A DNA stretch of 22,819 nucleotides, taken from IMG/VR virus record IMGVR_UViG_3300035130_000240, positions 1 through 22,819 of that record, one strand, 5' to 3'. Numbering within the stretch: position 1 is the stretch's first letter; each line of letters starts with the position of its first letter. This document shows positions 3,739 through 16,197 of this stretch, piece by piece. Under the pieces are notes generated by a model. The model saw nothing but the letters and a program-made list of their open reading frames with translations. It searched no databases and was not told the DNA's origin. Made by a program: the position numbers and the translations under genes. The stretch comes from a virus.

Positions 3739-4800
3739 CTAGTCATCCTGCGTTGGTGGCCACGAGGCCTCGGCACAGTTGGAAAGGTATTCCAGAAGAT
3801 CTGGATACTTATCCATCACCTTGGGTAGCTGTTTCATCCAAAACTGGACCTGCTCCCCAGGCTCCGGATAGTCTGGAACAACGACCTGCCCGGCATCCAT
3901 ATTGACGTATCGGGAGTTGTCTAGTAGGTAAACCACAAGCTCGTATCCAGGATGGATGCCAGAATCGTACATTAGAGGCAAGTCGACCGTGTAATTGGGC
4001 GCTTGCATCTTGTCCTTTTTGCTCAGCACAGTTACCAAAATCCCACTGTGCGACTCCGGATAGTCCCACCGTTTGTTGCGCCAAATCTTCAACCGCTTAG
4101 ACGCCCAGAAACGGAGAGCATTACCGCCAGACGCAGCAATCTTACGCGACCCATCACCACCACCTCGACCTTTGCCCTTGTTGATGGTGGTTATCGTCTG
4201 GCTGACAAATACCAAAGAGGCATTAGCCTTAGGTAGCAATGGGCTTACCGTACGCAGCATCTGGCGAATCTTGCGAGCTTTATCGGCGATGCCATCCTTG
4301 TATAGATCACCTTCCTTCTCGCCCTCCGTTTGGCTGCTACTAATCGTGTCCCAAAAGATGCCAATAGGCATACCCTTCGGAAACTTGCCGGGCATAGTCA
4401 ACCTGTCCACGGTACGCAACAAAGCCTTAGCACCAAGCTCTACCGTGTCTGCCTGCAAATGGAGATGACGGTCGTTGTCGTGCCCCATTGCCAACGCACG
4501 TTCCCGATCCCAGCCTGTTTCTGCATCAAGAAGAACGCTAATTCCACCGCTTTGTTGAAAGCCGACCATCATGTGCTGCGCAACGGTCGACTTACCGACG
4601 CTCTCGTCTCCGTAAACCTCCATCACCCGGCCAAGCGGCACGCCACCACCAAGCAACAGGTTAAGAATGAAAGAGGTGGTCGGGATACGAACCTTGCCCG
4701 CGTCGGACAGGTTGGGATCGGGGCCAGCAACCGCCACCTCCATTTTGAGGTCTTTGTTGATGGCAACTGCTATATCGCGAATTTCTTGAATGAATGCCAC
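3739..4800 (-). CDS. RecA/UvsX-type recombinase
   Basis: A 353-residue strand-exchange ATPase. Walker A is GDESVGKST (64-72). The segment VLLDAETGWDRERAL (89-103) carries the RecA catalytic glutamate at E94. Walker B is IGIFWDTISSS (146-156), followed by SLVFVSQT (195-202). A glycine-rich DNA-binding L2-like loop spans about 208-227 (NKGKGRGGGDGSRKIAASGG). Size and plan match bacterial RecA cores and T4 UvsX. It should form filaments on single-stranded DNA with the SSB encoded just upstream. The start is a GTG at 4800, directly after the TAA of the SSB gene, with AAGGGG 6 bases upstream. The C-terminus is acidic (PPTQDD), as in many recombinases. Confidence 0.93.
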   Translation of the reverse strand: MAFIQEIRDIAVAINKDLKMEVAVAGPDPNLSDAGKVRIPTTSFILNLLLGGGVPLGRVMEVYGDESVGKSTVAQHMMVGFQQSGGISVLLDAETGWDRERALAMGHDNDRHLHLQADTVELGAKALLRTVDRLTMPGKFPKGMPIGIFWDTISSSQTEGEKEGDLYKDGIADKARKIRQMLRTVSPLLPKANASLVFVSQTITTINKGKGRGGGDGSRKIAASGGNALRFWASKRLKIWRNKRWDYPESHSGILVTVLSKKDKMQAPNYTVDLPLMYDSGIHPGYELVVYLLDNSRYVNMDAGQVVVPDYPEPGEQVQFWMKQLPKVMDKYPDLLEYLSNCAEASWPPTQDD

Positions 4801-5901
4801 TTACTTCCCCTTTTGCTGCTTGGCGTTGCTGCAGCTCAACTCCTCGTCGCAGAGTAAACACTTCTCCAACTCATGGTTGAACCCAACGGACCCGTCGTTA
4901 TGGGTCTCAGGGTCATCCAACGCCGCGTGGCAAGCCGGCAAATCGGTCGGTTTCACGTCGCCAATGTCGTCCGCCTTGCTCGCTCGGGCTCTGCGCTCGT
5001 GCTTCTCGTCGTCGCTTGGCTTCTTGACGTCGCGGTCTTCTTCGTCCTCGTCACGCCGACGCCTGCGTTCGCTGCGATCATCATCATCCTCGTCACGCCG
5101 ACGGGTGCGACGCTCGCGACGATCATCGTCATCATCCTCGTCACGCCGACTAGACCTGCGTTCGCTACGGTCATCGTGTTCGTCCTCATGTTTCCTGAGG
5201 TAATACCGCTCCATCTGCTTCGCCATGCTGCGAATCTCAGCCAACTTGTCATCGTCGGGTGGGCTGACGATTTTGTCGAGGTCGAAGATTTCGCCCATCC
5301 ACTTAGCAATCATCTCATCGCTCTCATGCAGAGGTGAGCGATCCGGGTCACGGTCGGGCTTGTAGTCAATGAAGGTCCGCTTTTTGTTCTTACCCTTCCC
5401 TCGTTTCTCCTTCCGAGTGATGGTGACGTCGAAACCGCGCTCGATATCCGAGAGGTCGCCAACCTTGCGGTTGTCGAACTGCAAAACGAACCAGTTGCGT
5501 ACACCGGGGGTATATCGAACGATCTGAGGACCTTTATCCTCCTCGTCACGATCGATGATGTTGGCATAGTAAGCCCACGACGTCTCTTGCCGACCAAGGT
5601 TGAGGTTAGGCAACTTCTTCAAGATGCGATCAATAGCATCGCAAATGGGGCACCTGTCGAAGACATCCGGCCACGTCAACAGACAGTCGCGGACCTCGTT
5701 ATCCGGCTTGATCTGGAAATGTGTGCCGAACTTGCGAAAGAATATCCCCTTGGCGCTGTATGGTGGTAGCAAACGATGGATGTTTTCATCTTTCCATTCG
5801 TAACGCTCGATATCGCGAAGTGGGCCTTTCTGATCCTCCTGCTCGCGAACTCGCTCTGCTTCTTCGTGGATCTCGTCCCAATTTACCTCATGAACTATCA
5901 C
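4801..5901 (-). CDS. gp32-like single-stranded DNA-binding protein with charged repeat tail
   Basis: A 366-residue protein whose N-terminal part resembles T4 gp32. Candidate zinc ligands are H61, C73, C84 and C87; the spacing closely follows gp32 (H64, C77, C87, C90), including the CPIC pair. The core (about 40-210) has many aromatic and basic residues. A tail from about 238 to 300 then alternates Arg-rich and Asp/Glu-rich blocks, encoded by an imperfect tandem repeat. The C-terminus carries further Cys/His (C324, C348, C351, C357) that could bind a second metal. T4 gp32 is 301 residues with a plain acidic tail, so this one is longer and built differently. The GTG at 5901 is preferred because AGGAG sits 7 bases upstream; an in-frame ATG at 5937 lacks a Shine-Dalgarno and overlaps the previous gene. 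The recombinase follows immediately. Confidence 0.86.
   Translation of the reverse strand: MIVHEVNWDEIHEEAERVREQEDQKGPLRDIERYEWKDENIHRLLPPYSAKGIFFRKFGTHFQIKPDNEVRDCLLTWPDVFDRCPICDAIDRILKKLPNLNLGRQETSWAYYANIIDRDEEDKGPQIVRYTPGVRNWFVLQFDNRKVGDLSDIERGFDVTITRKEKRGKGKNKKRTFIDYKPDRDPDRSPLHESDEMIAKWMGEIFDLDKIVSPPDDDKLAEIRSMAKQMERYYLRKHEDEHDDRSERRSSRRDEDDDDDRRERRTRRRDEDDDDRSERRRRRDEDEEDRDVKKPSDDEKHERRARASKADDIGDVKPTDLPACHAALDDPETHNDGSVGFNHELEKCLLCDEELSCSNAKQQKGK
5041..5185. repeat. Imperfect in-frame tandem repeat within the SSB gene
   Basis: The 15-base string CCTCGTCACGCCGAC on the plus strand starts at 5046, 5088 and 5136, giving units of 42 and 48 bases with diverged flanks rich in ATCATC. Both spacings are multiples of three, so the reading frame is kept. 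The coding strand gives alternating Arg-rich and Asp-rich blocks in the SSB tail. Such units can expand or contract by slippage. Confidence 0.85.
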
Positions 5902-5908
5902 TTGGTTT

Positions 5909-5913
5909 CTCCT
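5909..5913 (-). promoter_or_regulatory. Shine-Dalgarno site that fixes the SSB start
   Basis: AGGAG on the minus strand lies 7 bases before the GTG at 5901 and overlaps the TAG stop (5914-5912) of the upstream gene. It is the only good ribosome-binding site near the 5' end of the SSB gene, which argues against the in-frame ATG at 5937. Confidence 0.75.
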
Positions 5914-6406
5914 ATTGTTGATTGTCGACTTCTTCATGTCGGCGAACGTTGACAGAAATGTCGTTTATCTTATCGTTTCTTCGGATCACCATCTGCTCCA
6001 GCTTCACCAAGTCGCGAAGCAAAGCATCCGATGCATCCTTTTGATCCTCAGCATCCCTCACTTCTTCACTTATGCCAAGCAATGCCTCCCTATCTTCTTT
6101 ATTATATTTACGCCCGGTCTCCGCCTTATCGGGCAACGTCAACCGCTCGTTGCCTTTAGCCCGCTCCAAGTTGCGCTTAGCAGCGATAGCATAATCGGTG
6201 TATCTACTCACAAGATAGACCATGGCCGCTTCGATGCGCTGCTGCTTCGCCCATCGGTCGTTTTGGTCCTTTGGGCTAGTATCGTCGTCCAAGCTCAGCG
6301 CATAAACAATGCGCTTGACTACGACCCGATCCGACTTTTCTAGCTCCTGATTGACTACTAACCGACTAGCCAACAGCCTAAACTCGTCGAACTGGTCTTC
6401 GTTCAT
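5912..6406 (-). CDS. Hypothetical charged helical protein (164 aa)
   Basis: I do not recognise this protein. It is 164 residues, rich in Arg, Glu, Asp and Lys, with no Cys and no membrane segment. Long stretches look helical, for example residues 60-80 and 105-150, so a coiled-coil or bundle fold is likely. It begins with an ATG overlapping the TGA of the upstream 68-codon gene (ATGA) and ends in a TAG lying inside the SSB Shine-Dalgarno. It is therefore made from the same message as SSB and recombinase, and an accessory role in replication or recombination is possible but unproven. Confidence 0.75.
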   Translation of the reverse strand: MNEDQFDEFRLLASRLVVNQELEKSDRVVVKRIVYALSLDDDTSPKDQNDRWAKQQRIEAAMVYLVSRYTDYAIAAKRNLERAKGNERLTLPDKAETGRKYNKEDREALLGISEEVRDAEDQKDASDALLRDLVKLEQMVIRRNDKINDISVNVRRHEEVDNQQ

Positions 6407-6609
6407 CGGTTACACCTATCGATATGAAGAGCCACACTTGTCGACAAACGATCAAGCTTGTCCTTGGTCAACGACATCTGCTTTTTCCACTCAGCAAACT
6501 GCGTCCTGGTTATCCGATGGTTATTCTGGACGATGCTTGCCAACGTCGCCACTCTCTGGCTTACCGAACGAAACTCGTCAAACAACCTCTTGTCTGCTTC
6601 TACTCTCAT
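6403..6609 (-). CDS. Small hypothetical coiled-coil-like protein (68 aa)
   Basis: A 68-residue, mostly helical, charged protein beginning MRVEADKRLFDEF and ending HIDRCNR. Hydrophobic residues recur at heptad-like spacing (residues 10-60), suggesting a short coiled coil. The ATG shares its A with the TAA of the 22-codon membrane gene (TAATG), and its TGA overlaps the next ATG (ATGA). The in-frame region upstream has other ATG codons, but those would cover two small genes in another frame. The function is unknown. The order small membrane peptide then soluble coiled coil recalls two-part phage gene sets, but lysis genes are not usually here, so I make no claim. Confidence 0.66.
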   Translation of the reverse strand: MRVEADKRLFDEFRSVSQRVATLASIVQNNHRITRTQFAEWKKQMSLTKDKLDRLSTSVALHIDRCNR

Positions 6610-6829: not shown

Positions 6830-6936
6830 CGGACCGGCACCTCCCGCTCTCGCACCACGAACCCCGCCAGCCCGGTCACAACAGCCGCATTCTTTACTCC
6901 GACCAAGCGACAAAGCCACGACCTCATGCAGCTCAT
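6826..6936 (-). CDS. Micro-gene, 36-residue hypothetical protein
   Basis: An ATG at 6936 overlaps the polymerase stop TGA (ATGA), and the TGA at 6828-6826 overlaps the ATG of the next gene (ATGA). The frame exactly fills the space between two better-supported genes. The peptide has a basic, Cys-containing start (MSCMRSWLCR), a small-residue hydrophobic middle (NAAVVTGLAGFVV) and a charged end (REREVPVR). The middle is short for a membrane span, so location is uncertain. No family is recognised. The main support is the perfect double stop-start junction. Confidence 0.5.
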   Translation of the reverse strand: MSCMRSWLCRLVGVKNAAVVTGLAGFVVREREVPVR

Positions 6937-9923
6937 TCGCAGTTACTCCGCTCGGGAAAACGCCAGACAGACTTGATGGTTGACGTGTTGTTTCCCTCGT
7001 CGTCCTCTTCATCTTCCCTCTCAATCTCCACGATCTTCGGTCTGGGTATCCACTTGAGTACCACAGCCTTGAACTTGGCAAAATGTTCTGGCTTACCGGA
7101 GATAGACACCAGCCCATTACCTAGCAGCTTCATCTTAAGTGTCTCGCCCCAGCTAACACCAACGTCGAAGTCCACTGCCAACGGTACCCTAAGCCAATCC
7201 AGATTTTCGGATGGCCAGTCCTCCATGATTTCCTTGAGCACCAAGGCATAAGCCAACAGCTCTCCGGGATAAATAGAACTACAAATGGAGTCATGAATTG
7301 TCGCCCAAATGCTCGACTTGAAGTCGTCTGCTTCTATCCGCTCCGTGGCCATGGTCAACGCGTTGGTGCAGATGTCTCCTGCGGTCATCTGTATGGGGTT
7401 GTTTATACCGCGTCGGCGGAGATCATCCTTATCGTATTTCTTCTTGTCTAGTATGCGTCGAAAGCCCCACTCGCTCCATACCTCGCCATCTTGCTGAGCC
7501 TGCTTCTCCTGCTGTTTATGATAGCGCCGGACAGACGGAAATGTGTCTAGATACTTCTTGATGATCTTCTGGGCTTTCGCCTTGGAAATGCCCAGCTGAC
7601 CAGCCACAGCTGCAGCACCACGACCACCGATCGCAACGCCGAGGGATACCGCTTTGTGTGAGCTTCGCTCAACGCTCGTTACGCTCTTCTCGTCTTTACC
7701 TTGGCAAAGAGCCGTCACCAAGGTATGGATATCTCGGCCCTCCCGAAAGGCCTTTATCATCTCCTCGTCGCCACAGTAGTTAGCCAAAACACGCAATTCC
7801 TGCTGCGACCAGTCAGCAATCAAGATTAACCCAAGATCGTGTAACGGGATTACACACTCCTTGGTTACGGAGCCTCGGGTGATCCCATGCCAAGGTGGTA
7901 CGCCTTTGCAGTTGTATCGCCCCGTATCCGTCGTCCTGATGCCGAACTGTGCATGCGCTACGTCCTCAAGGTCAGCATATTTGGGTATCGGCTTGAGAAA
8001 GCTGCTGTTCAGCTTCGCGGCTGCGTTATACCGCTGAAGCTCCTTGATTGCCTTTACCTTCTCATCTATCTCGATCTTGGTTGAGTCTCGTTTAGCTTTA
8101 TCCAGTTTGTCATAAAGACTAACCAAAATATCGTTCAAGACGTCTTTGTCCGCAGATGGGGCACCTGCGTCTGTTGTTCTGATCACTGGGCACTTGAGGA
8201 TATCGAACAACCACACACGTTTGTTGCGCGGCGAAGACAGCTTTATCTCCTTCGGCACTTTCTTCACCTCTGGCATGTCTTCTAGCTTGCGCCGCACCTG
8301 ATCTTCGTAGCTCTGGTCAAACCACTGTTGGACTTCGTCCATGGTCTGCTGCATTTCTTGGTATGCCTGCTCAAACCGACGAAGGTCGAGCTTTATTCCT
8401 CTTCGCTCCATCTCCACAGTGGGCAAAATAGCAGGCACCGTGACTCGTTCGTGTGGGTCTAACAGCCCCTCTTCGTCCAGCAAATCGGTCAGCTTTTCGT
8501 GTAATCGGCCAGTACTGTCAGCATCAGCACAGCAATACCTATGCACGAGGAACAAGTCTAAGTCGCCCATGTGGCGTTCGCGATAAATCACTTTATCAGC
8601 ATCGACCTCGATCGCCCACGGGTTGTGCTTCTTGTCGGTCAGCCGACTTAGATTGTCAGTCAAGTCTAAGGTAAGCTGTTCATATTGGCCTTCGATGGGC
8701 AACCACGGAGGCAAATCCAGAAGCGCCTGCTCCATTTCATCTTTGTGGCTGACCATACCGAGGTATCGCGTAGCCAACGTCTCCAAATTCTTCTCACCCA
8801 TGTCGTTGTAAAGCGACCAATGAGCAAGATAGGTATCGCCTGCTACCTTTTTGGGGAAAATGCCTACTCGGTTAAGCCAATGGATATCGAACTTGAGGTT
8901 ATGCCCTACCAACGGCACTGTCGCCAGCAAGTCGTTGGTCATATGTATAATCGCCCGTAAGCTAATCGTATCCTTCCAAAACGGCGACTCCGGATGGTTG
9001 AACGGCACAGTGTACCCACGCCCAGGTCTATCGGAAAGCGAAAACAAGAGCAGTTCGCCGTAGGGAAGCAAGAAGCTGTGCAGCCCAGTGGTCTCAGTAT
9101 CGAGCGCCACAAAGTCGATATGCCCTTCGCGATAAGCTCGTTTGATCTTGGTGTAGACCTTTTTGATCTTCTCCAATGAGTCGAGCAGAACGTATTTGTC
9201 CCAAGGTACCTGGTCCTCGCCAGTTATCTTCTTCGTCAGATATGATAAATCCTCGAGGATATACTGCCTGGCTTCCTCGCCACCTCCGCGCAGAACGTAT
9301 GACGGATGAAAAGTCGGCCAGACAGTAAACTCCTCGCATTTGAACTTCGGAAAGCCATGCTTCTCCCCTCTCTCAATGGCTTTCCTGCGTTGCAGCTGAG
9401 TATGCGTGTCCTTAGGCAACAGACCCATCTGATCCGTAGACTTCAGCCACTTAAGGAGCTTGCCAAATCTGAAGTCTATCGATGGAAACTCGGATACCCA
9501 ACGCTTACGGCGAACGCCGCTTATCGCCTTGGCATCGGGGATGAAAAACTTCGCAGAAGTATAACCTAACGGCACGATGAACACCGGTCGCAACCTCAAC
9601 ACTTCCGCTTCGATATACGGCCGGCAAGCTTCTATTTCTTCTGGTTCGGGTGGGCGTACTCCTTTCCTCCGGTTCTTCGGATTCCGCAACGGCACGCACC
9701 TAACGACGTTGGTCCAACGACACCACTCCTCATCCACGCCAGCTTGTTTCATCAAGCTCTTCAGCTCACGCCAAGCTTCGCCAACAAAAGCCTTGCCTTG
9801 TTCGTCCTCATCCCGTCCTGGCGCTTCGCCGACGAACAAGACGATTGGCTTTTCGGCACCTCGCGCGTTGACCTTCACCGTTGTCGCCGACTTGTGCAGC
9901 CGGCAGCGCGTACAGTCACCCAT
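6933..9923 (-). CDS. Family-4 uracil-DNA glycosylase fused to family A DNA polymerase (3'-5' exo + pol)
   Basis: A 996-residue fusion. Residues 1 to about 230 form a complete family-4 (Fe-S) uracil-DNA glycosylase: cluster ligands C4, C7, C76 and C100 (the 69-residue gap between the second and third matches thermophilic UDGs), motif GEAPGRDEDEQGKAFVG (32-48), and HPSYVLR (206-212). Residues 268-480 form a DEDDy proofreading exonuclease: D275-x-E277, N342...D346 and Y463...D467. Residues 490-930 form a Pol I-type polymerase: motif A IADWSQQELR (702-711), O-helix R753...K757, and motif C IHDS (876-879). The O-helix has Leu761 and Ile765 where E. coli Pol I has Phe762 and Tyr766. An acidic tail (968-976) follows. 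There is no 5' nuclease domain; a separate FEN gene lies downstream. The ATG follows the GroES TAA by one base. This is the likely replicative polymerase, and the glycosylase could check for uracil at the fork. Confidence 0.95.
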   Translation of the reverse strand: MGDCTRCRLHKSATTVKVNARGAEKPIVLFVGEAPGRDEDEQGKAFVGEAWRELKSLMKQAGVDEEWCRWTNVVRCVPLRNPKNRRKGVRPPEPEEIEACRPYIEAEVLRLRPVFIVPLGYTSAKFFIPDAKAISGVRRKRWVSEFPSIDFRFGKLLKWLKSTDQMGLLPKDTHTQLQRRKAIERGEKHGFPKFKCEEFTVWPTFHPSYVLRGGGEEARQYILEDLSYLTKKITGEDQVPWDKYVLLDSLEKIKKVYTKIKRAYREGHIDFVALDTETTGLHSFLLPYGELLLFSLSDRPGRGYTVPFNHPESPFWKDTISLRAIIHMTNDLLATVPLVGHNLKFDIHWLNRVGIFPKKVAGDTYLAHWSLYNDMGEKNLETLATRYLGMVSHKDEMEQALLDLPPWLPIEGQYEQLTLDLTDNLSRLTDKKHNPWAIEVDADKVIYRERHMGDLDLFLVHRYCCADADSTGRLHEKLTDLLDEEGLLDPHERVTVPAILPTVEMERRGIKLDLRRFEQAYQEMQQTMDEVQQWFDQSYEDQVRRKLEDMPEVKKVPKEIKLSSPRNKRVWLFDILKCPVIRTTDAGAPSADKDVLNDILVSLYDKLDKAKRDSTKIEIDEKVKAIKELQRYNAAAKLNSSFLKPIPKYADLEDVAHAQFGIRTTDTGRYNCKGVPPWHGITRGSVTKECVIPLHDLGLILIADWSQQELRVLANYCGDEEMIKAFREGRDIHTLVTALCQGKDEKSVTSVERSSHKAVSLGVAIGGRGAAAVAGQLGISKAKAQKIIKKYLDTFPSVRRYHKQQEKQAQQDGEVWSEWGFRRILDKKKYDKDDLRRRGINNPIQMTAGDICTNALTMATERIEADDFKSSIWATIHDSICSSIYPGELLAYALVLKEIMEDWPSENLDWLRVPLAVDFDVGVSWGETLKMKLLGNGLVSISGKPEHFAKFKAVVLKWIPRPKIVEIEREDEEDDEGNNTSTIKSVWRFPERSNCE

Positions 9924-9924
9924 T

Positions 9925-10275
9925 TTACTCGCTCGGCACGTCTAGTGCTTCGTCCAATAACTTCTCTGCCCCTTCCTCAAACTCGACGCGAGCTTGGCAG
10001 TCAGCCCACTTGACGATGGTCACGTTCTTGTTGCCCAGACGGAATACGGTACCGATGTACCTAGCAATGAGCCAGTACTCACCGGGCTCACACTGCGGTT
10101 TGGTTTCGGGTCGGTTGGGCAAACCTGGCCCAACTTCGATGATCTTGGCTAGGTTGCTTTCTTGCCGATCCTCGTGGAACGGCATGATTACACCGGCCGG
10201 TGTTCTGGTTGAGTCAACCCGTTGTACCAACACAAGATCGTGGTGCACATGTACTTTCTTTACGCTGTAGATCAT
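9925..10275 (-). CDS. GroES/Cpn10-like co-chaperonin
   Basis: A 116-residue GroES homologue. It has the Cpn10 opening VHHDLVLVQRV (10-20), which matches the HDRVLVKR type, then a mobile-loop equivalent STRTPAGVIMP (22-32) that would contact GroEL. IIEVGPG (45-51) matches the AVGPG element, and GEYWLIARYIGTVF (about 64-77) matches the VLFGKYAGTEV strand. Some phages, such as T4 (gp31) and RB49 (CocO), encode their own co-chaperonin so that host GroEL can fold the major capsid protein; this one keeps recognisable Cpn10 sequence, unlike gp31. No GroEL is present in the window. The ATG overlaps the upstream TGA (ATGA). The acidic C-terminal extension (EEGAEKLLDEALDVPSE) is extra. Confidence 0.88.
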   Translation of the reverse strand: MIYSVKKVHVHHDLVLVQRVDSTRTPAGVIMPFHEDRQESNLAKIIEVGPGLPNRPETKPQCEPGEYWLIARYIGTVFRLGNKNVTIVKWADCQARVEFEEGAEKLLDEALDVPSE

Positions 10276-10517
10276 TTTCTTGTCCTTTGCTGTTTCTTGT
10301 GGTCAGGGTTGTATCGGCGAATAGTTATGTCCAGCCCGAACTCTCCGCTGTCGTTCTCCCAAGGAAACGCATGGATAACGGAATCAGTAAGATCCAGTTG
10401 AGCTGGCACACGTGCCTTCGTGAAATAATAACGATCACCGTTGGCGTTTTCTGCGCCGACTAGGCCAATACGGATCTTTTCCATACCCACTACGGCCTCT
10501 TCTGAATCGTTTGGCAT
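10272..10517 (-). CDS. Hypothetical protein (81 aa), overlapping primase 3' end
   Basis: An 81-residue protein with no recognised family. The segment from residue 12 (MEKIRIGLVGAENANGDRY) to about 70 alternates strands and turns; the end is basic (HKKQQRTRK). An ATG at 10517 has AAGGA 7 bases upstream; an internal ATG at 10484 is an alternative that would begin at MEKIRIG. The gene overlaps the end of the primase gene by 83 bases in a different frame, longer than any other overlap here. Its stop overlaps the GroES ATG (ATGA). Confidence 0.7.
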   Translation of the reverse strand: MPNDSEEAVVGMEKIRIGLVGAENANGDRYYFTKARVPAQLDLTDSVIHAFPWENDSGEFGLDITIRRYNPDHKKQQRTRK

Positions 10518-11499
10518 TACCTTGTCCTTGCCCCCGCAAGGTGAAAATCACCCGGTTGCGTAGGCTGAATGGCAGCGCTTCTTTCCTTCGCTGCTCGAAG
10601 TCAGTGCAAGAGTCGGGGTCCTCGTCATAGTCGAACTCGACCAACGACACCGAACACCGACGCTCGGTTAATGCTTGAGCCAACGCCACAGCATCTTTCC
10701 GCGCATCACCATCCAGAGCGACCACATACTTATCGAACTTAGCCCTAACCAACATAGAAATTTGAGCGTCAGAAATGTTCTTCCCGTACGTGCCTACTGC
10801 GTCGTCACCCACAGCAATCGCAGAGAATACCCCCTCTGTGATCACCACTTCCGTATAGGCAATAGCCGCAGACAGATGAAATACCTGAGTCCGGGCGTTC
10901 GTGCCTTCCGGGTTTTTATACCTGAGCTTGTGGCCGCGATATGTGCGGGCTACCCAATAGCAGCAGTCGCCATAGTCGTCAAAGTCAGGAATAACTACCC
11001 GTCCTTCCCCCGCATAGTATTTCCTCTCCTCTTTAGTCATTTCGGCCAAATCTTCAGTACCGAACCCAATCCGATAGCGTTCGATGATTCGCCAGCTGAG
11101 CCCACGCTTCGCCAAGTACTGATAAGCCTCACTGCCTTCGATGACTTCCATGTAGTCCTTTGGCAGCTCGACAGGCACAGCATACCTAGGCATGAACCGA
11201 CGGAAGCCTTTTATTTCCTTGACAAACTCGCTCCATCGAGCCGCTGTGTATCGATGGTCCTCTACGCCTTGACCACAAAGCAACCGCTTAACCGGACCGC
11301 TAGCCTTGCATCGCATGCAGTGGTACCAACCAACGACACCATCGATCACCAAGCTAGGATTAATATACAACCGATATTTTTGGTCCTGCTTGCCCACACG
11401 TGTTGAGCAAAACGGGCATTTGAAGCGTAGCTCGCCTTTGCCCGTAGTCTTAAAGTCGCCCAGTATTCGAGCGAACGGGTTTATCTGAACAAACGCCAT
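10435..11499 (-). CDS. DnaG-type primase (zinc finger + Toprim)
   Basis: A 354-residue primase. An N-terminal zinc-binding domain has CPFC (28-31) and CMRC (61-64), typical of the CHC2/T7 gp4-like zinc finger that reads the template. The Toprim core has VVITEGVFSA (218-227) with the catalytic Glu222, YVVALDGDA (258-266) with D263-x-D265, and an acidic cluster FDYDEDPD (289-296). It would make RNA primers with the DnaB-like helicase of the same operon. It is shorter than bacterial DnaG and lacks an obvious helicase-binding domain. The start is the ATG at 11499, sharing one base with the upstream TGA (TGATG). The last 30 or so residues are very basic (for example RRRKRQR) and are encoded where the next gene overlaps, so the tail may be a by-product of overprinting. 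Confidence 0.9.
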   Translation of the reverse strand: MAFVQINPFARILGDFKTTGKGELRFKCPFCSTRVGKQDQKYRLYINPSLVIDGVVGWYHCMRCKASGPVKRLLCGQGVEDHRYTAARWSEFVKEIKGFRRFMPRYAVPVELPKDYMEVIEGSEAYQYLAKRGLSWRIIERYRIGFGTEDLAEMTKEERKYYAGEGRVVIPDFDDYGDCCYWVARTYRGHKLRYKNPEGTNARTQVFHLSAAIAYTEVVITEGVFSAIAVGDDAVGTYGKNISDAQISMLVRAKFDKYVVALDGDARKDAVALAQALTERRCSVSLVEFDYDEDPDSCTDFEQRRKEALPFSLRNRVIFTLRGQGQGNAKRFRRGRSGYGKDPYWPSRRRKRQR

Positions 11500-11768
11500 C
11501 AATAAATCGGGTTACACGCTCTACCGCGAGCCAACAACGACCGAAGGGCCTTGTTCGCCAAAGCTTTGGGCGTCATCCTGTAGTCCTCGCTGGCGCTGAA
11601 CTCCTTCTTGAACGTGCCCCATTTAGCTACCACTCGACGAACCAACACGTATCGTGGCAATTTCCTCAGCTTACGAAGCTTGGCGCCCAACGCCGCTTCC
11701 TCCCTAGCTCTCTGCTCCCAATACTCGCGCCGTCTCTGTTCCTCTTCGGTCTCTTCCCGCTTATCCAT
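11499..11768 (-). CDS. Hypothetical highly charged helical protein (89 aa)
   Basis: An 89-residue protein. Residues 1-40 are nearly all Glu, Arg, Lys and Ala (for example REETEEEQRRREYWEQR) and should form a long helix. The rest (PRYVLVRRVVAKWGTFKKEF and onward) is basic and could bind nucleic acid. No family is recognised. The ATG at 11768 has AGGA 6 bases upstream and overlaps the preceding gene by 8 bases; the TGA overlaps the primase ATG. It sits directly between the PurZ-like region and primase. Confidence 0.72.
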   Translation of the reverse strand: MDKREETEEEQRRREYWEQRAREEAALGAKLRKLRKLPRYVLVRRVVAKWGTFKKEFSASEDYRMTPKALANKALRSLLARGRACNPIY

Positions 11769-12003
11769 AAGTGATCCTTTTGAACTCGCCCCATGTCAGC
11801 GGGTATACACCAACAGTAGTCTTCCTGTTGACAAGAACACCTAGTTGGGTCACCCTAGCTCCGTTAGGCGCATGCGCACCACCAATGTGCAAAGACTGAC
11901 CGTATTCCTTGATGTCTTCGTCGTCGGCCACCACATATTCTTCGCCTTGCCTTACTGCCAACCTAATGGCCTTACCTAATCTAGTGTCCTCCGGAAATAT
12001 CAT
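11761..12003 (-). CDS. Hypothetical protein (80 aa) coupled to the PurZ-like gene
   Basis: An 80-residue protein starting MIFPEDTRLGKAIRLAV and ending WGEFKRITYG. It mixes helix (8-20) and strands (VTQLGVLVNRKTTVGVYPL, 53-71) with a Gly/His-containing turn (LHIGGAHAPNGA, 39-50). It does not show HD, MazG or Nudix motifs, so there is no sign that it is a nucleotide hydrolase. The ATG overlaps the TGA of the kinase-PurZ gene (ATGA), which places it under the same translation control. I do not recognise it. Confidence 0.75.
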   Translation of the reverse strand: MIFPEDTRLGKAIRLAVRQGEEYVVADDEDIKEYGQSLHIGGAHAPNGARVTQLGVLVNRKTTVGVYPLTWGEFKRITYG

Positions 12004-13589
12004 GCCCACACCCGACGGTCGATGATCGCATTCGGCCCGAACTCCTTAGAGACCAGACTGACTGGAACACCGGTCTGTTCCTCGATGCGCTTGATCAGGT
12101 GCTTGGCGGTGGAGTCCAACTCATCAAAACTCGTTGCTGCCCGGTTTTTGATATTCAGGTAGTCGACAAACGTCAAGGCAATGTCGGTGGGGGCATTAAG
12201 GTGACAACTTTGCCTGAGCAAACCCCAGTCGAACTCGCCAATGCGTCGCTTGCGCTTGGTCGTAGAGGTGGTTTCCGTTTTCTGAAGCTCAGCAAGGTCA
12301 ATGCCTGCACGCTCATGAATTTCCTCGATAGTGATCTCCTTGAACATTGGCCCACTGGTTCCTCCTTGAGGAGACTGCACACGAATAGGATAGGTACGGC
12401 AGATCATCATCACGCGGTTGACTCTCGACGGAGGAACACCGGCCTCGGACAATAACCCGCTGATGGAACAGTCACGGCTAGTGCAGTAAGGAAAAGGGCC
12501 ATGGTGAAGACTGAGCCCAGTACCCTGAGTACCTTCGACGAGCACGCGACGACCCTCGGCGTAAGCCGACTCCAGCACCGACATCGTAGGCGTGATGTAC
12601 TTCTTTAGATCGTCGTGATTACCGGCCAACACCGTGTCCAACCCACGAAGTACCTTTCGCGCCGTTGCCTGGCCAACACCTTGCCCAGTCGACCCTATCT
12701 CGCCCACAAGCCCGCGTGCCTCCTTCTCCTTGTCCTCGTCGCTGATGATCATGGCGTTCGGGTCGATGAACAGCCTATCCGGACCAAGACCACACTCCTT
12801 GATCTCGTCGAGCAGACGGGGTACGTACATCACTGCGCCGGGTGCCAACACGATCTTGGCCTTGGTACAACGAGTACCGGAGGGTAGATGGTGAAAAACG
12901 TAAACACCCTCGGGTTCCCAGACGGAATGGCCGGCATTTGGTCCGCCACTGCGGATAAGGACATCGTATTCCTTGGCGACATAGGCAGCCACATTGCCTT
13001 TGCCTTCGCTACCATACTGACCGCCCAGCAACACGTCCACCGAACGATGCTCGCTTGGAGCCTCACCCATGATGATCAACGCGCGCCCAAAGGTCTGGCC
13101 AGGAGAAGACCAACCCGTGTCGATCACGCCATCCGACAGATCGGCGAGCTTGTTGACCGCCTGCTCAACCGGGCAACGCTTGGCGCTATCATAGTCGGTG
13201 TCGATCACATTGAAGTTGTTGCGTACCTTGAACCGTTCGCGAAGCATCCGGTCAGGAGCAATCAGATGAATATGCGTTACCAACGCAAAACGCTCACGAA
13301 TGGCACGCACCTGCTCGGGAGTACGCACGGCGTCGATCACGAAACCGATACCACATCCCTCCACGTCGGCCTCCATTTCCTCCACGATCCATCGGCCATT
13401 CGTATCTCCATCCAAGCTACGGCCTAGCTCCTGCAGCAGCTCACGATTCTGGTTAGCGCCGAGTCGCTTGCGGATAGCCTCCCTGGTCTTGAAGTGCCGC
13501 ATGCCAAACCTACGAGCCAAGTTCTCGGCAAGATGCGACTTGCCAGACGCGATAGCGCCAGTAATCAACACCACTCTATTGGACAGCAT
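12000..13589 (-). CDS. purZ: P-loop nucleoside-monophosphate-kinase-like domain fused to PurZ-type adenylosuccinate synthetase
   Basis: A 529-residue fusion. Residues 1 to about 160 form a P-loop kinase-like domain with Walker A GAIASGKS (11-18), VIDAVRTPEQV (84-94) and LIAPDRMLRERF (109-120), resembling NMP/dephospho-CoA kinases. Residues 185-529 form a short, phage/archaeal-sized adenylosuccinate synthetase with P-loop GGQYGSEGKG (189-198), GGPNAGHS (215-222), GSTGQGVG (299-306), VEGTQGTGLSLHHG (351-364) and TTKRKRRIGEFDW (443-455). PurA uses an Asp in its GDEGKG loop to attack IMP; here it is Ser194, as in PurZ, which takes dGMP plus Asp toward 2-amino-dAMP (dZMP). Host PurB would finish the reaction. 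The fused kinase could phosphorylate dZMP or dGMP, but its substrate is unknown. AGGAGG lies 5 bases before the ATG at 13589. An archaeal-type PurA is the main alternative. Confidence 0.87.
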   Translation of the reverse strand: MLSNRVVLITGAIASGKSHLAENLARRFGMRHFKTREAIRKRLGANQNRELLQELGRSLDGDTNGRWIVEEMEADVEGCGIGFVIDAVRTPEQVRAIRERFALVTHIHLIAPDRMLRERFKVRNNFNVIDTDYDSAKRCPVEQAVNKLADLSDGVIDTGWSSPGQTFGRALIIMGEAPSEHRSVDVLLGGQYGSEGKGNVAAYVAKEYDVLIRSGGPNAGHSVWEPEGVYVFHHLPSGTRCTKAKIVLAPGAVMYVPRLLDEIKECGLGPDRLFIDPNAMIISDEDKEKEARGLVGEIGSTGQGVGQATARKVLRGLDTVLAGNHDDLKKYITPTMSVLESAYAEGRRVLVEGTQGTGLSLHHGPFPYCTSRDCSISGLLSEAGVPPSRVNRVMMICRTYPIRVQSPQGGTSGPMFKEITIEEIHERAGIDLAELQKTETTSTTKRKRRIGEFDWGLLRQSCHLNAPTDIALTFVDYLNIKNRAATSFDELDSTAKHLIKRIEEQTGVPVSLVSKEFGPNAIIDRRVWA

Positions 13590-14939
13590 TTAGTCCTCCT
13601 CTTCATCTCGTTCTTGTTCAATTTCCTCTGCTGTAAGCTGGCGAACGTAGCAAGCTCCCAGGTCCGTAAACAGCGGAACGACGTATTTGCTCCGCCCACG
13701 ACGCACCTTATCAACCCACATACGCGCTCTGCTGTTGATGTGTTCCTCGTTTGTTTGATTGAAGCTGACGATGCCGTCGGCCTTTGCTGCTTTTAACCAA
13801 CTATCAGCAATATTATCCATGGTAATTACGTCTGTGTCCTTGTCTGGTCGCCACCGCCTTACTTGCGAAGCTACCCAAACAAGCACATCGAAGTCAGCAG
13901 CAATGGCGCCAAGCTCGCTATACACCCGGCCCATGTTTAGGTACATGTTGTCGTGGTTGTACGGCCTAAACTCGTCTGGATAGTCAACAATGAGCATCGC
14001 CGGCCGCACACCATCAACCGCAATTAGCCTTTCCAGATAAGCCCTGACGCCTATTGGGTTGATCGAATATGACGAGTAGTACTTGATGCGTAGGTACCGC
14101 TCAAGAAGACGATCTAACTTGGCTGCCTTGCGAAGGTACTCCTCCGAACCATCGGTTACGTCGTCTATCGACAGAAGCGACAACCGCGCACCGTACCTAG
14201 CACTGACGTCCAGTTCGTCAAGATCACCAATGGTTATATGGACGACCGGTAAGGCCTCAGTGGCAATGCATACCGCACCAAAGTTGGTGAGCAACTGGGA
14301 CTTACCGATACCAGGCATACCCATCACTATCCACACCTCACCCCTACCTGGCCCACCACGCAACCCACGGTCGAACATCGGGAAGTTGGTCGGTATCTTG
14401 CCCCGGTTATAAACCGACTCCCTTGCCATCGAAGGAAGATCATAGAAGCTACCGAACAGCTGAGTGCCAAGTTGGTTCGCGTTTGACCCAACAGCGGCAG
14501 CGTCGCTGATCAGTCTGGTAACTTTGTCGAACTCGTCATCGTCTTCTATTAGGTCCGTAGCCTCAATAATGGCCACGCGCATGGCCTGGCGCTTACCAAA
14601 CCGGATCACCCTTTCGCTGATCGCGTCTCGGTCTAGCAAGTTCACTCGGTAAAGATCAGCAATCTCGGAGAGTATGTCGTCTATTTCCTCCTTCGGCACC
14701 TTGTATGAAGTCGCGAACTCCTTTATTTCCTCGACCAACGTCGCATGGCTAGGCACTTGCCCGTGCCGTTCCACCAAATCCAAACAAACACGAGTGGCAG
14801 TTGAGAGATACGGATAGTCAAAATAGCGCGGATCTATAACATCCTGGTAGTCACGCAGAAAAGTGACGTCACGCAGGCATAAGGCGGCTATTCGGCGCTG
14901 GAACGCCTCGGTGTATCGATATGTCTCCTGCCGACTCAC
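13590..14939 (-). CDS. DnaB/gp41-like replicative helicase
   Basis: A 449-residue protein. The N-terminal 150 residues are helical, as in DnaB-family N-domains. The C-terminal RecA-type motor has Walker A GMPGIGKSQ (207-215), the preceding GGPGRGEVWIVMG, Walker B MLIVDYPDEF (316-325), and a later ADSWLKAAKADGIVSFNQ stretch like the motif 3/4 region. The end is acidic (EEIEQERDEEED). It should be the ring helicase that unwinds DNA at the fork and works with the primase three genes downstream. The GTG at 14939 overlaps the TGA of the upstream gene (GTGA) and is preferred; an in-frame GTG at 14945 is possible. The last codons contain the strong Shine-Dalgarno of the kinase-PurZ gene. Confidence 0.88.
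   Translation of the reverse strand: MSRQETYRYTEAFQRRIAALCLRDVTFLRDYQDVIDPRYFDYPYLSTATRVCLDLVERHGQVPSHATLVEEIKEFATSYKVPKEEIDDILSEIADLYRVNLLDRDAISERVIRFGKRQAMRVAIIEATDLIEDDDEFDKVTRLISDAAAVGSNANQLGTQLFGSFYDLPSMARESVYNRGKIPTNFPMFDRGLRGGPGRGEVWIVMGMPGIGKSQLLTNFGAVCIATEALPVVHITIGDLDELDVSARYGARLSLLSIDDVTDGSEEYLRKAAKLDRLLERYLRIKYYSSYSINPIGVRAYLERLIAVDGVRPAMLIVDYPDEFRPYNHDNMYLNMGRVYSELGAIAADFDVLVWVASQVRRWRPDKDTDVITMDNIADSWLKAAKADGIVSFNQTNEEHINSRARMWVDKVRRGRSKYVVPLFTDLGACYVRQLTAEEIEQERDEEED
13595..13600 (-). promoter_or_regulatory. Perfect Shine-Dalgarno for the kinase-PurZ gene
   Basis: AGGAGG on the minus strand lies 5 bases before the ATG at 13589, inside the Glu-Glu-Asp codons that end the helicase gene. 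It is among the strongest ribosome-binding sites in the window, whereas many neighbouring genes rely on stop-start overlap, so this enzyme may be translated at a high level. Confidence 0.8.
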
Positions 14940-15319
14940 CGCCACCCAACCGAATACACCGGAAACGGGATACGAATATCGATAAAGTTCCTGGGGTCGT
15001 TCTGGCCGGGACTAACTCCTCTTTCGTCGGCTGCGTCCTTCAGTCGCTGGTTATGCTCGTCGAGCGCTGCGACCAGATTTCGCACCTTAGATCTGGCCTT
15101 AGCCAATGGCACACCAGACTCAGTGATGAACTCCCTGACTTCCTGGACCAACTTCTCCAAGGTGGGGTCGATCTCCTGCAACGACTTTCCCTCGCCATAA
15201 TGTTCAGCATAGGCTTGTGCGCCGCGTATCTCGATCTCTTCCAAATGTTCCATTCTAGCATCCACCATAACCAACAACTGACGAAGGAAAGGAAAGTCAA
15301 AATCCGTATATGTGATCAT
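14936..15319 (-). CDS. Hypothetical helical protein (127 aa)
   Basis: A 127-residue protein, mostly charged helix (for example MEHLEEIEIRGAQAYAEHY, 23-41, and VRNLVAALDEHNQRLKDA, 79-96), with a more extended C-terminus (IDIRIPFPVYSVGWR). No family is recognised. Both ends overlap neighbours: its ATG with an upstream TGA (ATGA), its TGA with the helicase GTG (GTGA). Its place just before the replicative helicase would fit a helicase loader, but it has no P-loop and the role is a guess. Confidence 0.75.
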   Translation of the reverse strand: MITYTDFDFPFLRQLLVMVDARMEHLEEIEIRGAQAYAEHYGEGKSLQEIDPTLEKLVQEVREFITESGVPLAKARSKVRNLVAALDEHNQRLKDAADERGVSPGQNDPRNFIDIRIPFPVYSVGWR

Positions 15320-15594: not shown

Positions 15595-15931
15595 AATCCT
15601 CATCCTTTCTGTGTTTCAGAAGACTGTCCACTGCTGAGAGCGTTTTCTGGTCAGTAACTACCCCAGCCACACAATTGGCGCAGAACACATGTTTATCTCC
15701 GGCCAACGACCTACGACACTTACGGCAAGCTCGCGCCTGTTTAACGCCGAATTTACCGCCCATCATCATACTAATCGCAGCGCTTATGAATTCTGACCGA
15801 CCACGAAAGTCATGGTGGTTAGCTATGTAGCTATCCATAGCGTTTAGTTGGTCTTCGGGCAAACAAATATTAACTCGCTTGGTGGGTTCGTTATAGAATA
15901 GCGACCGTTTAAGCCCACCTCTAGTCTTCAT
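15563..15931 (-). CDS. Ribbon-helix-helix DNA-binding protein with zinc ribbon
   Basis: A 122-residue protein. Residues 17-56 fit a ribbon-helix-helix (CopG/Arc-like) fold: strand KRVNICLPEDQLNAMDSYI followed by GRSEFISAAISMMM. A four-Cys zinc ribbon follows: C69-x2-C72 and C84-x2-C87 (ACRKCRRSL, FCANCV). The tail is acidic. Ribbon-helix-helix proteins bind DNA operators as dimers, so this is the most likely transcription regulator of the long operon and might bind the palindrome noted at 22653-22669; no direct evidence links them. Its ATG overlaps the upstream TGA (ATGA). Confidence 0.8.
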   Translation of the reverse strand: MKTRGGLKRSLFYNEPTKRVNICLPEDQLNAMDSYIANHHDFRGRSEFISAAISMMMGGKFGVKQARACRKCRRSLAGDKHVFCANCVAGVVTDQKTLSAVDSLLKHRKDEDCEDNPSIGDD

Positions 15932-16197
15932 TTTCCCTCTTCCTTTATGTCTAGCTTGACGTGCCGCCCACGAGTCATGGCCACGAACATCTTATGCAAG
16001 GCGCCGACCGTGGCGCCTCCTTTGCCAATGATCTTGCCATGGTCAGATTTATTCGCTATTATCGTAAACCGCAAACAGTCCGGGTCTTCTACCTCTCTCA
16101 CCTCCAAGTCTTCAGGATGATCGACTACCTGGACTAAAACATCTTCCAACAACTCCTCATACGCCGTCACCTTTTGGTATGGCAAATCTGTAGTCAT
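15928..16197 (-). CDS. KH-domain RNA-binding protein (KhpA-like)
   Basis: An 89-residue, single-domain protein. It has DLEVREVEDPDCLRFTIIA (30-48), then the KH signature DHGKIIGKGGATVGALHKMF (52-71) with the GxxG loop GKGG (58-61), and ends in a strand (HVKLDIKEEGK). Size and order match bacterial KhpA, an RNA chaperone/binding protein, rather than a ribosomal KH domain. In a phage it might act on host or phage mRNA. Its ATG overlaps the TGA of the UvsW-like gene and its TGA overlaps the next ATG (both ATGA). Confidence 0.85.
   Translation of the reverse strand: MTTDLPYQKVTAYEELLEDVLVQVVDHPEDLEVREVEDPDCLRFTIIANKSDHGKIIGKGGATVGALHKMFVAMTRGRHVKLDIKEEGK

Follow-up and report, generated by a model that had tools for sequence, protein, structure and literature searches.

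A kinase–PurZ fusion in a phage replication operon belongs to a branch of synthetases encoded in cells beside predicted DarT-like genes

Introduction

PurZ-type enzymes have been described mainly from phages with Z-DNA, in which 2-aminoadenine replaces adenine, and a few archaeal sequences lie at the base of their tree. The product of PurZ is a succinyl nucleotide (dSMP), which host enzymes convert to dZMP and then to dZTP (PMC12884076). At the active site, ordinary PurA needs a catalytic Asp that is 99% conserved in that family (PMC12884076), and in S-2L PurZ the substrate is contacted by T273, a residue found only in PurZ (PMC8342488). Known Z phages also carry DatZ/MazZ or DutZ/DmtZ/DUF5664, in most cases together with the polymerase DpoZ (PMC8342488, PMC12884076, PMC8599892).

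Here we analysed an open reading frame (ORF) from an incomplete phage genome, available as a 22,819-base virus record (hereafter the window, meaning the whole stretch of DNA that was analysed). A first-pass annotation had described the product as a nucleoside-monophosphate (NMP)-kinase-like domain joined to a PurZ-like synthetase, and had suggested a phage enzyme that might channel product to a dZMP kinase in a Z-genome phage. From sequence comparison and phylogeny, we conclude that the window protein represents the phage branch of a hitherto undescribed kinase–synthetase family within the Ser-type (PurZ) clade.

Results

A single gene encodes both domains

The ORF was confirmed as a single unbroken frame on the minus strand, a strand that the first-pass annotation had not given, and Ser194 was located in its GGQYGSEGKG motif exactly as claimed there (Table 1). 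An adenylate-kinase-fold domain (residues 4–177) is followed by a PurZ-type adenylosuccinate synthetase (residues 180–529). Pfam assigned AAA_18 to residues 7–125 (9.2e-8) and Adenylsucc_synt to residues 325–479 plus an earlier stretch (4.7e-58), while the best PHROG match was '2-aminooxy adenylosuccinate synthetase' (3.8e-73). An AlphaFold2 model of the fusion, for which 52 natural homologues served as alignment input, had a mean pLDDT of 91.6 and a pTM of 0.84, and structure comparisons bore out the folds of both domains. In public annotation, homologues of the fusion are called adenylosuccinate synthetase and nothing more.

Table 1 Features of the fusion gene and its surroundings in the window.
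Feature	Position	Strand	Basis or remark
Kinase–PurZ fusion ORF	12000..13589	minus	529 aa + stop, ATG start, single unbroken frame
NMP-kinase-fold domain, residues 1–177	13059..13589	minus	AAA_18, structure matches
Walker A GAIASGKS, residues 11–18	13536..13559	minus	G11, G16, K17 invariant (52 fusions)
DAVR motif, residues 86–89	13323..13334	minus	D86 and R89 at least 90% conserved (52 fusions)
Probable LID arginines, residues 119–123	13221..13235	minus	R119 invariant, R123 at least 90%; putative LID role
PurZ-type synthetase domain, residues 180–526	12012..13052	minus	Adenylsucc_synt 4.7e-58, structure matches
GGQYGSEGKG, Ser194 at PurA catalytic-Asp position	12996..13025	minus	Column comparison
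PIRV-(insert)-SGPM, residues 401–415, PurZ-type insertion	12345..12389	minus	Column comparison
T441 to K445	12255..12269	minus	T441 at S-2L PurZ T273 position
D476	12162..12164	minus	Asp as in PurA/PurZ0; Asn or Gln in PurZ
DnaB-like replicative helicase, abuts fusion upstream	13590..14945	minus	PHROG_19 1.6e-44
DNA primase, downstream, same operon	10435..11502	minus	PHROG_47 9.9e-40
Pair of small ORFs (82 and 89 aa), fusion–primase interval	11499..12009	minus	No family match
Family-A DNA polymerase with N-terminal uracil-DNA-glycosylase-type domain	6933..9923		Helix-O motif without usual Tyr

The fusion was found on eight IMG/VR contigs besides the window. One of these, the sister contig G001 (31,158 bases), is 99.83% identical to the window over 20,056 bases and encodes an identical fusion protein; the seven others, like 79 cellular loci, carry a full-length fusion at 41–51% identity to the window protein. 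Because the arrangement recurs on this sister contig and in dozens of diverged homologues, an assembly chimera was ruled out, and the fusion is not a product of chance. On contig G005 (56 kb) the fusion gene runs across the contig ends. Isolated phages gave no fusion among the 225 INPHARED records having a match, in agreement with the earlier remark that no phage enzyme of this form had been described.

The synthetase domain lies in the Ser-type clade, outside archaeal PurA

When the synthetase domain was compared with solved structures (VIA-align), the highest score was obtained with archaeal PurA (5k7x, Z 44.7), followed by dGMP-bound phiVC8 PurZ (6tnh, 40.6) and PurZ0 (7vf6, 40.3). NCBIfam models behaved similarly, the archaeal PurA model reaching 278 bits and the PurZ model 207.3 bits, each below its own cut-off (300 bits for PurZ).

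Diagnostic columns, compared in 110 sequences, separated the families. The catalytic-Asp column held Ser in all PurZ, PurZ0 and fusion sequences and Asp in all PurA. Ser194, R398, P401, I402 and S412 were common to the fusions and the remaining Ser-type sequences, PurZ and PurZ0 included, whereas nearly all PurA differed at these columns; the PurZ-type insertion in the PIRV–SGPM segment measured seven residues versus one in PurA. The position of T441 was Gly, as in PurA, in 5 of the 29 cellular fusions of the tree set. All 52 aligned fusions had Ser in the Ser194 column, but the IMG/VR and 79-locus searches used a pattern requiring GS, so that the Ser state there is partly conditioned; for this reason the Pseudomonas fusions matter, as they came from a search that placed no condition on Ser and had Ser in 7/7 genomes. 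Position 476 carries Asp, a residue shared with PurA and PurZ0 but not with PurZ, so that the phosphoryl donor is probably GTP.

Two maximum-likelihood trees were built, with branch support given as SH-aLRT only. In both, all Ser-type synthetases formed one clade beside archaeal PurA (SH-aLRT 100), and the kinase fusions formed their own branch inside it (99 and 96), falling within neither the PurZ branch (99) nor the PurZ0 branch (100). The first-pass annotation had named placement inside ordinary archaeal PurA as grounds for abandoning its proposal; the synthetase fell outside archaeal PurA in both trees, and together with the diagnostic residues these rule out that assignment. The statement that the domain matches PurZ thus stands for Ser194 and the PurZ-clade residues, but not for membership of PurZ itself, as the fusions form a third branch apart from PurZ and PurZ0 and score 207 bits against a cut-off of 300. 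Phage fusions were scattered and formed no single clade in either tree, with that of phage G006 at the base of the fusion branch and that of G002 among cellular fusions, and the trees give no direction of transfer.

These comparisons bear on the simplest alternative, namely that the protein is an ordinary IMP-using adenylosuccinate synthetase whose fused kinase converts AMP to ADP. The best solved-structure match and Asp476 would both fit such an enzyme. We nevertheless regard it as very improbable, given the Ser at position 194, where PurA requires Asp (PMC12884076), the PurZ-clade residues and the tree placement. Moreover, an ordinary Asp-type PurA was also present in 15 of 15 fusion-carrying cellular genomes checked, which argues against a housekeeping role for the fusion.

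The kinase-fold domain retains a catalytic set

The P-loop NMP-kinase-like domain reported ahead of the synthetase was recovered by structure as well as by Pfam. VIA-align matched it to 3lw7, an AMP-bound adenylate-kinase-related protein (Z 18.1, 162 residues aligned, rmsd 3.0), and to adenylate and uridylate kinases (Z 15–17), and Foldseek matches were to adenylate kinases and UMP/CMP kinases. Across the 52 aligned fusions, which are 43–51% identical to the window protein, G11, G16, K17, Q93, H106, H108 and R119 were invariant, and R49, D60, W67, D86, R89, R123, E142 and D153 were at least 90% conserved. This conservation indicates that the kinase catalytic machinery has been kept, and with the fold, P-loop and conserved arginines all present in the window protein, phosphotransfer is predicted.

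In 14 of the 79 cellular loci a further kinase of this family, encoded as a stand-alone ORF, lies near the fusion; on contig G004 such a kinase is directly upstream of it. An N-domain profile search found no stand-alone copies of the fusion-type kinase near single-domain PurZ phages. In locus L026 the stand-alone kinase (5974–6555) lies directly upstream of the fusion and keeps DAVR, and the fused copy, which is of cellular type, reads DHVG and no longer has the DxxR Arg. Stand-alone kinases directly upstream of the fusion were also seen in L143, L146, L148, L154, L158, L164, L167, L173, L175, L176 and L181. The L026 pair and the recurrence of a second kinase ORF would suit a kinase-fold domain that serves as a nucleotide-binding sensor or switch, gating the synthetase without phosphotransfer. 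Since the window protein keeps the full catalytic set, as do nearly all of the 52 fusions, we consider a sensor role of this kind quite unlikely.

A proposed purine-nucleotide-editing activity

The reading that we favour, with moderate confidence, is a bifunctional purine-nucleotide-editing enzyme in which a synthetase using (d)GMP, Asp and GTP is joined to a (d)NMP kinase. For the fusion we infer the following substrates, donor and order of steps. With GTP, the C-terminal domain would activate a guanine monophosphate (most likely dGMP) at its 6-oxo group and would then join the activated nucleotide to aspartate, yielding 2-amino-N6-succinyl-(d)AMP. The host lyase PurB would convert this succinyl nucleotide to 2-amino-(d)AMP, and the N-terminal domain would phosphorylate a purine (d)NMP of the same route, which could be dZMP or a feeder nucleotide. 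The phage copy would have been recruited from the cellular family.

Such an activity is favoured by the residues that set PurZ and PurZ0 apart from PurA (Ser194, R398, P401, I402, S412 and T441), by the single Ser clade in both trees, by the fold matches to PurZ, PurZ0 and an adenylate-kinase-related protein, by the conserved residues of the kinase domain, by the helicase–fusion order kept in phage G008 and by the separate PurA of the cellular genomes. It is disfavoured by raw similarity, which puts archaeal PurA no further from the fusion than PurZ, and by the Gly-bearing minority of cellular fusions at the T441 position. The two domains would not catalyse adjacent reactions: with dSMP as the synthetase product, the fused kinase would not perform the next step unless it used the succinyl nucleotide or made dGMP. 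The suggested channelling to a kinase for dZMP is therefore not borne out, as an adenylosuccinate-lyase step would intervene (PMC12884076). The kinase domain may also act on a nucleotide outside the purine-editing route.

The phage gene sits in a replication operon with few signs of Z-DNA

In the window, the DnaB-like helicase gene and the fusion are followed by genes for primase and family-A polymerase. Phage G008 has the same helicase–fusion order with proteins ~50% identical to those of the window, which suggests that the fusion has long been part of the replication operon of this lineage. The portal protein of the window phage is similar to those of T4-like myoviruses. Also among the replication genes are a GroES-like co-chaperonin (9925–10275) and a KhpA/B-type KH-domain protein (15928–16197), and sister contig G001 encodes a pair of MoxR-type ATPase and von Willebrand A proteins (L005:3138–6008) and a ThyX thymidylate synthase (L005:8341–9189).

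The first-pass annotation had suggested that this gene may belong to a Z-genome phage, in which the fusion would be a dedicated enzyme with its kinase converting dZMP to dZDP. Besides the PurZ-clade synthetase with its PurZ-specific residues and the position in the replication operon, two observations are consistent with this proposal. Two unrelated phage contigs have a nucleoside-deoxyribosyltransferase-superfamily gene near the fusion, directly downstream in G006 (L189:2677–3378) and ~2.6 kb upstream in G002 (L182, ORF 2144–2926); the superfamily includes DmtZ. In addition, two positions at which phiVC8 DpoZ diverges from its family (PMC8599892) likewise differ in the window polymerase, where they are Leu and Ser.

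Other observations point the opposite way. A search for homologues of DatZ, MazZ, DutZ, DmtZ and DUF5664 (phmmer, E 1e-3) found none on the 31-kb contig, G008, G005 or G006, although for the 31-kb contig this absence is weak evidence because the genome is incomplete. A homologue of a Z companion was present within 6 kb at 45 of 71 single-domain Ser loci; among fusions, this held for 2 of 79 cellular loci and for one of five phage contigs. The polymerase motif AVSLGVAIGG has neither Phe nor Tyr at the DpoZ helix-O position (the alignment is slightly ambiguous here), and hence lacks the Phe that replaces the helix-O Tyr in both DpoZ groups. S-2L itself has no DpoZ, so this polymerase is not universal in Z phages. 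The separate fusion branch and the lyase step between the two fused activities also weigh against a dedicated Z-genome enzyme, which we regard as a serious but doubtful candidate. 2-Aminoadenine in the DNA of the window phage is thus possible but not indicated by gene content, and with its closest relatives being cellular and beside a DarT-like gene, the protein represents a new PurZ-family branch and no proof of a Z-DNA phage.

Cellular relatives form an operon with DarT-fold and macrodomain partners

The first-pass annotation had treated the fusion as a phage enzyme, but the cellular data show that it is not confined to phages, its main home being a cellular operon. The 79 best loci on genome contigs, all with the full-length fusion, came from 10 bacterial and 3 archaeal phyla (13). 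Occurrence was patchy: the fusion was found in 7 of 199 Pseudomonas genomes and, of 96 Verrucomicrobia genomes, in the query alone. Eight plasmid records, mostly rhizobial, covered at least 80% of the protein, and 8 of 11 matching plasmids were typed conjugative.

Clustering of neighbouring ORFs at the fusion loci identified two partners. A profile search placed an ORF of DUF7002 (PF22531), a family without described function, nearby in 79 of 79 cellular loci, normally directly downstream of the fusion. An ORF of ~457 aa, encoding an ImmA/IrrE–macrodomain protein, lay directly upstream in 53 of 79; at locus L103, for example, the two genes occupy 7615–8277 and 4599–5966, respectively. Among open-licence papers, we found no mention of DUF7002 and nothing relevant on a kinase–PurZ fusion or on such an operon.

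An AlphaFold2 model of DUF7002 (pLDDT 92.9) had E. coli DarT1 (8baq) as its best structure match (Foldseek 7.9e-5; Z 10.9 over 163 residues), with DarT1 scoring above other ADP-ribosyltransferases. A sequence search of the PDB gave nothing significant for DUF7002, so that the predicted DarT-like fold comes from structure comparison only. The upstream protein combines an ImmA/IrrE-type peptidase domain (Pfam Peptidase_M78; PADLOC capP 4.6e-20) with an ALC1/TARG1-class macrodomain (9.8e-44 to 5e3b, SCO6735), and an ALC1-class macrodomain has been reported to remove DarT marks from DNA (PMC9411070). The cellular relatives thus place a predicted DarT-fold gene beside a macrodomain gene, an arrangement that suggests a DarTG-like conflict or stress system to which a nucleotide-editing enzyme has been added.

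On a plasmid of Rhizobium sp. Kim5 (L270), the fusion and DUF7002 occur without the macrodomain gene, near AbiJ-NTD4, RelA/SpoT and AAA-ATPase genes, in surroundings that look like a defence island. A Sinorhizobium medicae plasmid (L269:5995–8057) carries a single-domain Ser-type synthetase outside a phage; the next gene appeared by eye to be of dCTP-deaminase/dUTPase type with a membrane helix, and toxin–antitoxin genes are close by.

Given these partners, the phage gene could be a captured part of a cellular conflict system, used for counter-defence or superinfection exclusion, for instance through changes to the nucleotides or DNA that the DarT-fold partner targets. The patchy operon with its conjugative rhizobial plasmids, the nature of the two partners and the scatter of phage fusions over the trees, which fits repeated capture, would all agree with this. 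However, the gene abuts the replicative helicase in both the window and G008, an odd place for accessory cargo, and has been retained at this site between phages at 50% identity; in addition, DUF7002 and ImmA–macrodomain genes were absent from the window, G001, G002, G005, G006 and G008 (the cellular-type operon is present on G003, G004 and G007). As the defence role of the operon is itself putative, capture for counter-defence seems rather unlikely to us, and nucleotide editing within the replication operon remains the reading we prefer.

Discussion

Our results add a third, kinase-fused branch to the Ser clade, one that is widespread in bacteria and archaea and always near a predicted DarT-fold gene. 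This raises the question of whether cells make 2-aminoadenine nucleotides, for defence or otherwise, and it means that a Ser signature and a PurZ annotation alone do not identify a Z-DNA phage. As a speculation that we think improbable as a whole, the cellular loci could constitute a mobile, multi-phylum system in which kinase–PurZ makes 2-aminoadenine (or succinyl-2-aminoadenine) nucleotides and acts with a DarT-fold ADP-ribosyltransferase and a macrodomain, the altered nucleotide marking, protecting or poisoning DNA; phages would then have brought the enzyme into a replication operon as a means of changing their own DNA or nucleotide pool.

Comparison with known systems

The nearest described relatives are PurZ and PurZ0. 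With PurZ/DgsS of phiVC8 and S-2L (6fm1, 6tnh, 7odx) the fusion shares Ser for Asp, the PIRV insertion, Thr at the T273 position and the fold (Z 38–41), but it differs in its fused kinase, in GSEGKG where PurZ has GSTGKG, in Asp rather than Asn/Gln at the donor-base position, in its tree branch and in having no DatZ/MazZ neighbours detected on the 31-kb contig. PurZ0 (7vf6; Arthrobacter phage Wayne, Streptomyces phage Hiyaa) is likewise Ser-type, with GGQ(F/Y)GSE, 31–35% identity and the donor-base Asp that probably denotes GTP use; it differs from the fusion, which has a kinase domain, a separate branch and no DutZ/DmtZ neighbours. Archaeal short PurA (5k7x, Pyrococcus horikoshii) has the compact fold with archaeal deletions and is the best structural match, but it retains the catalytic Asp, lies outside the Ser clade and has no kinase. 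The N-terminal domain, for its part, resembles Sulfolobus 3lw7 (UPF0200) and adenylate kinases in fold, P-loop and arginines, although these are stand-alone proteins with ~20% identity to the fused domain.

DarTG toxin–antitoxin systems resemble the cellular operon in pairing a DarT fold, predicted here for DUF7002, with a macrodomain, of the ALC1 class in the operon. The cellular operon differs by adding an ImmA/IrrE peptidase domain and the kinase–PurZ fusion; its DUF7002 falls outside PADLOC models and its toxicity is putative, and the window phage has neither partner. Finally, the anti-phage dCTP deaminase (PADLOC dCTPase) also joins a P-loop domain to a nucleotide-converting enzyme, and its model gave partial, weak matches to the N-domains of the L103 fusion (3.4e-9) and the window protein (5.3e-6); the catalytic partner there is a deaminase, whereas in the fusion it is a synthetase.
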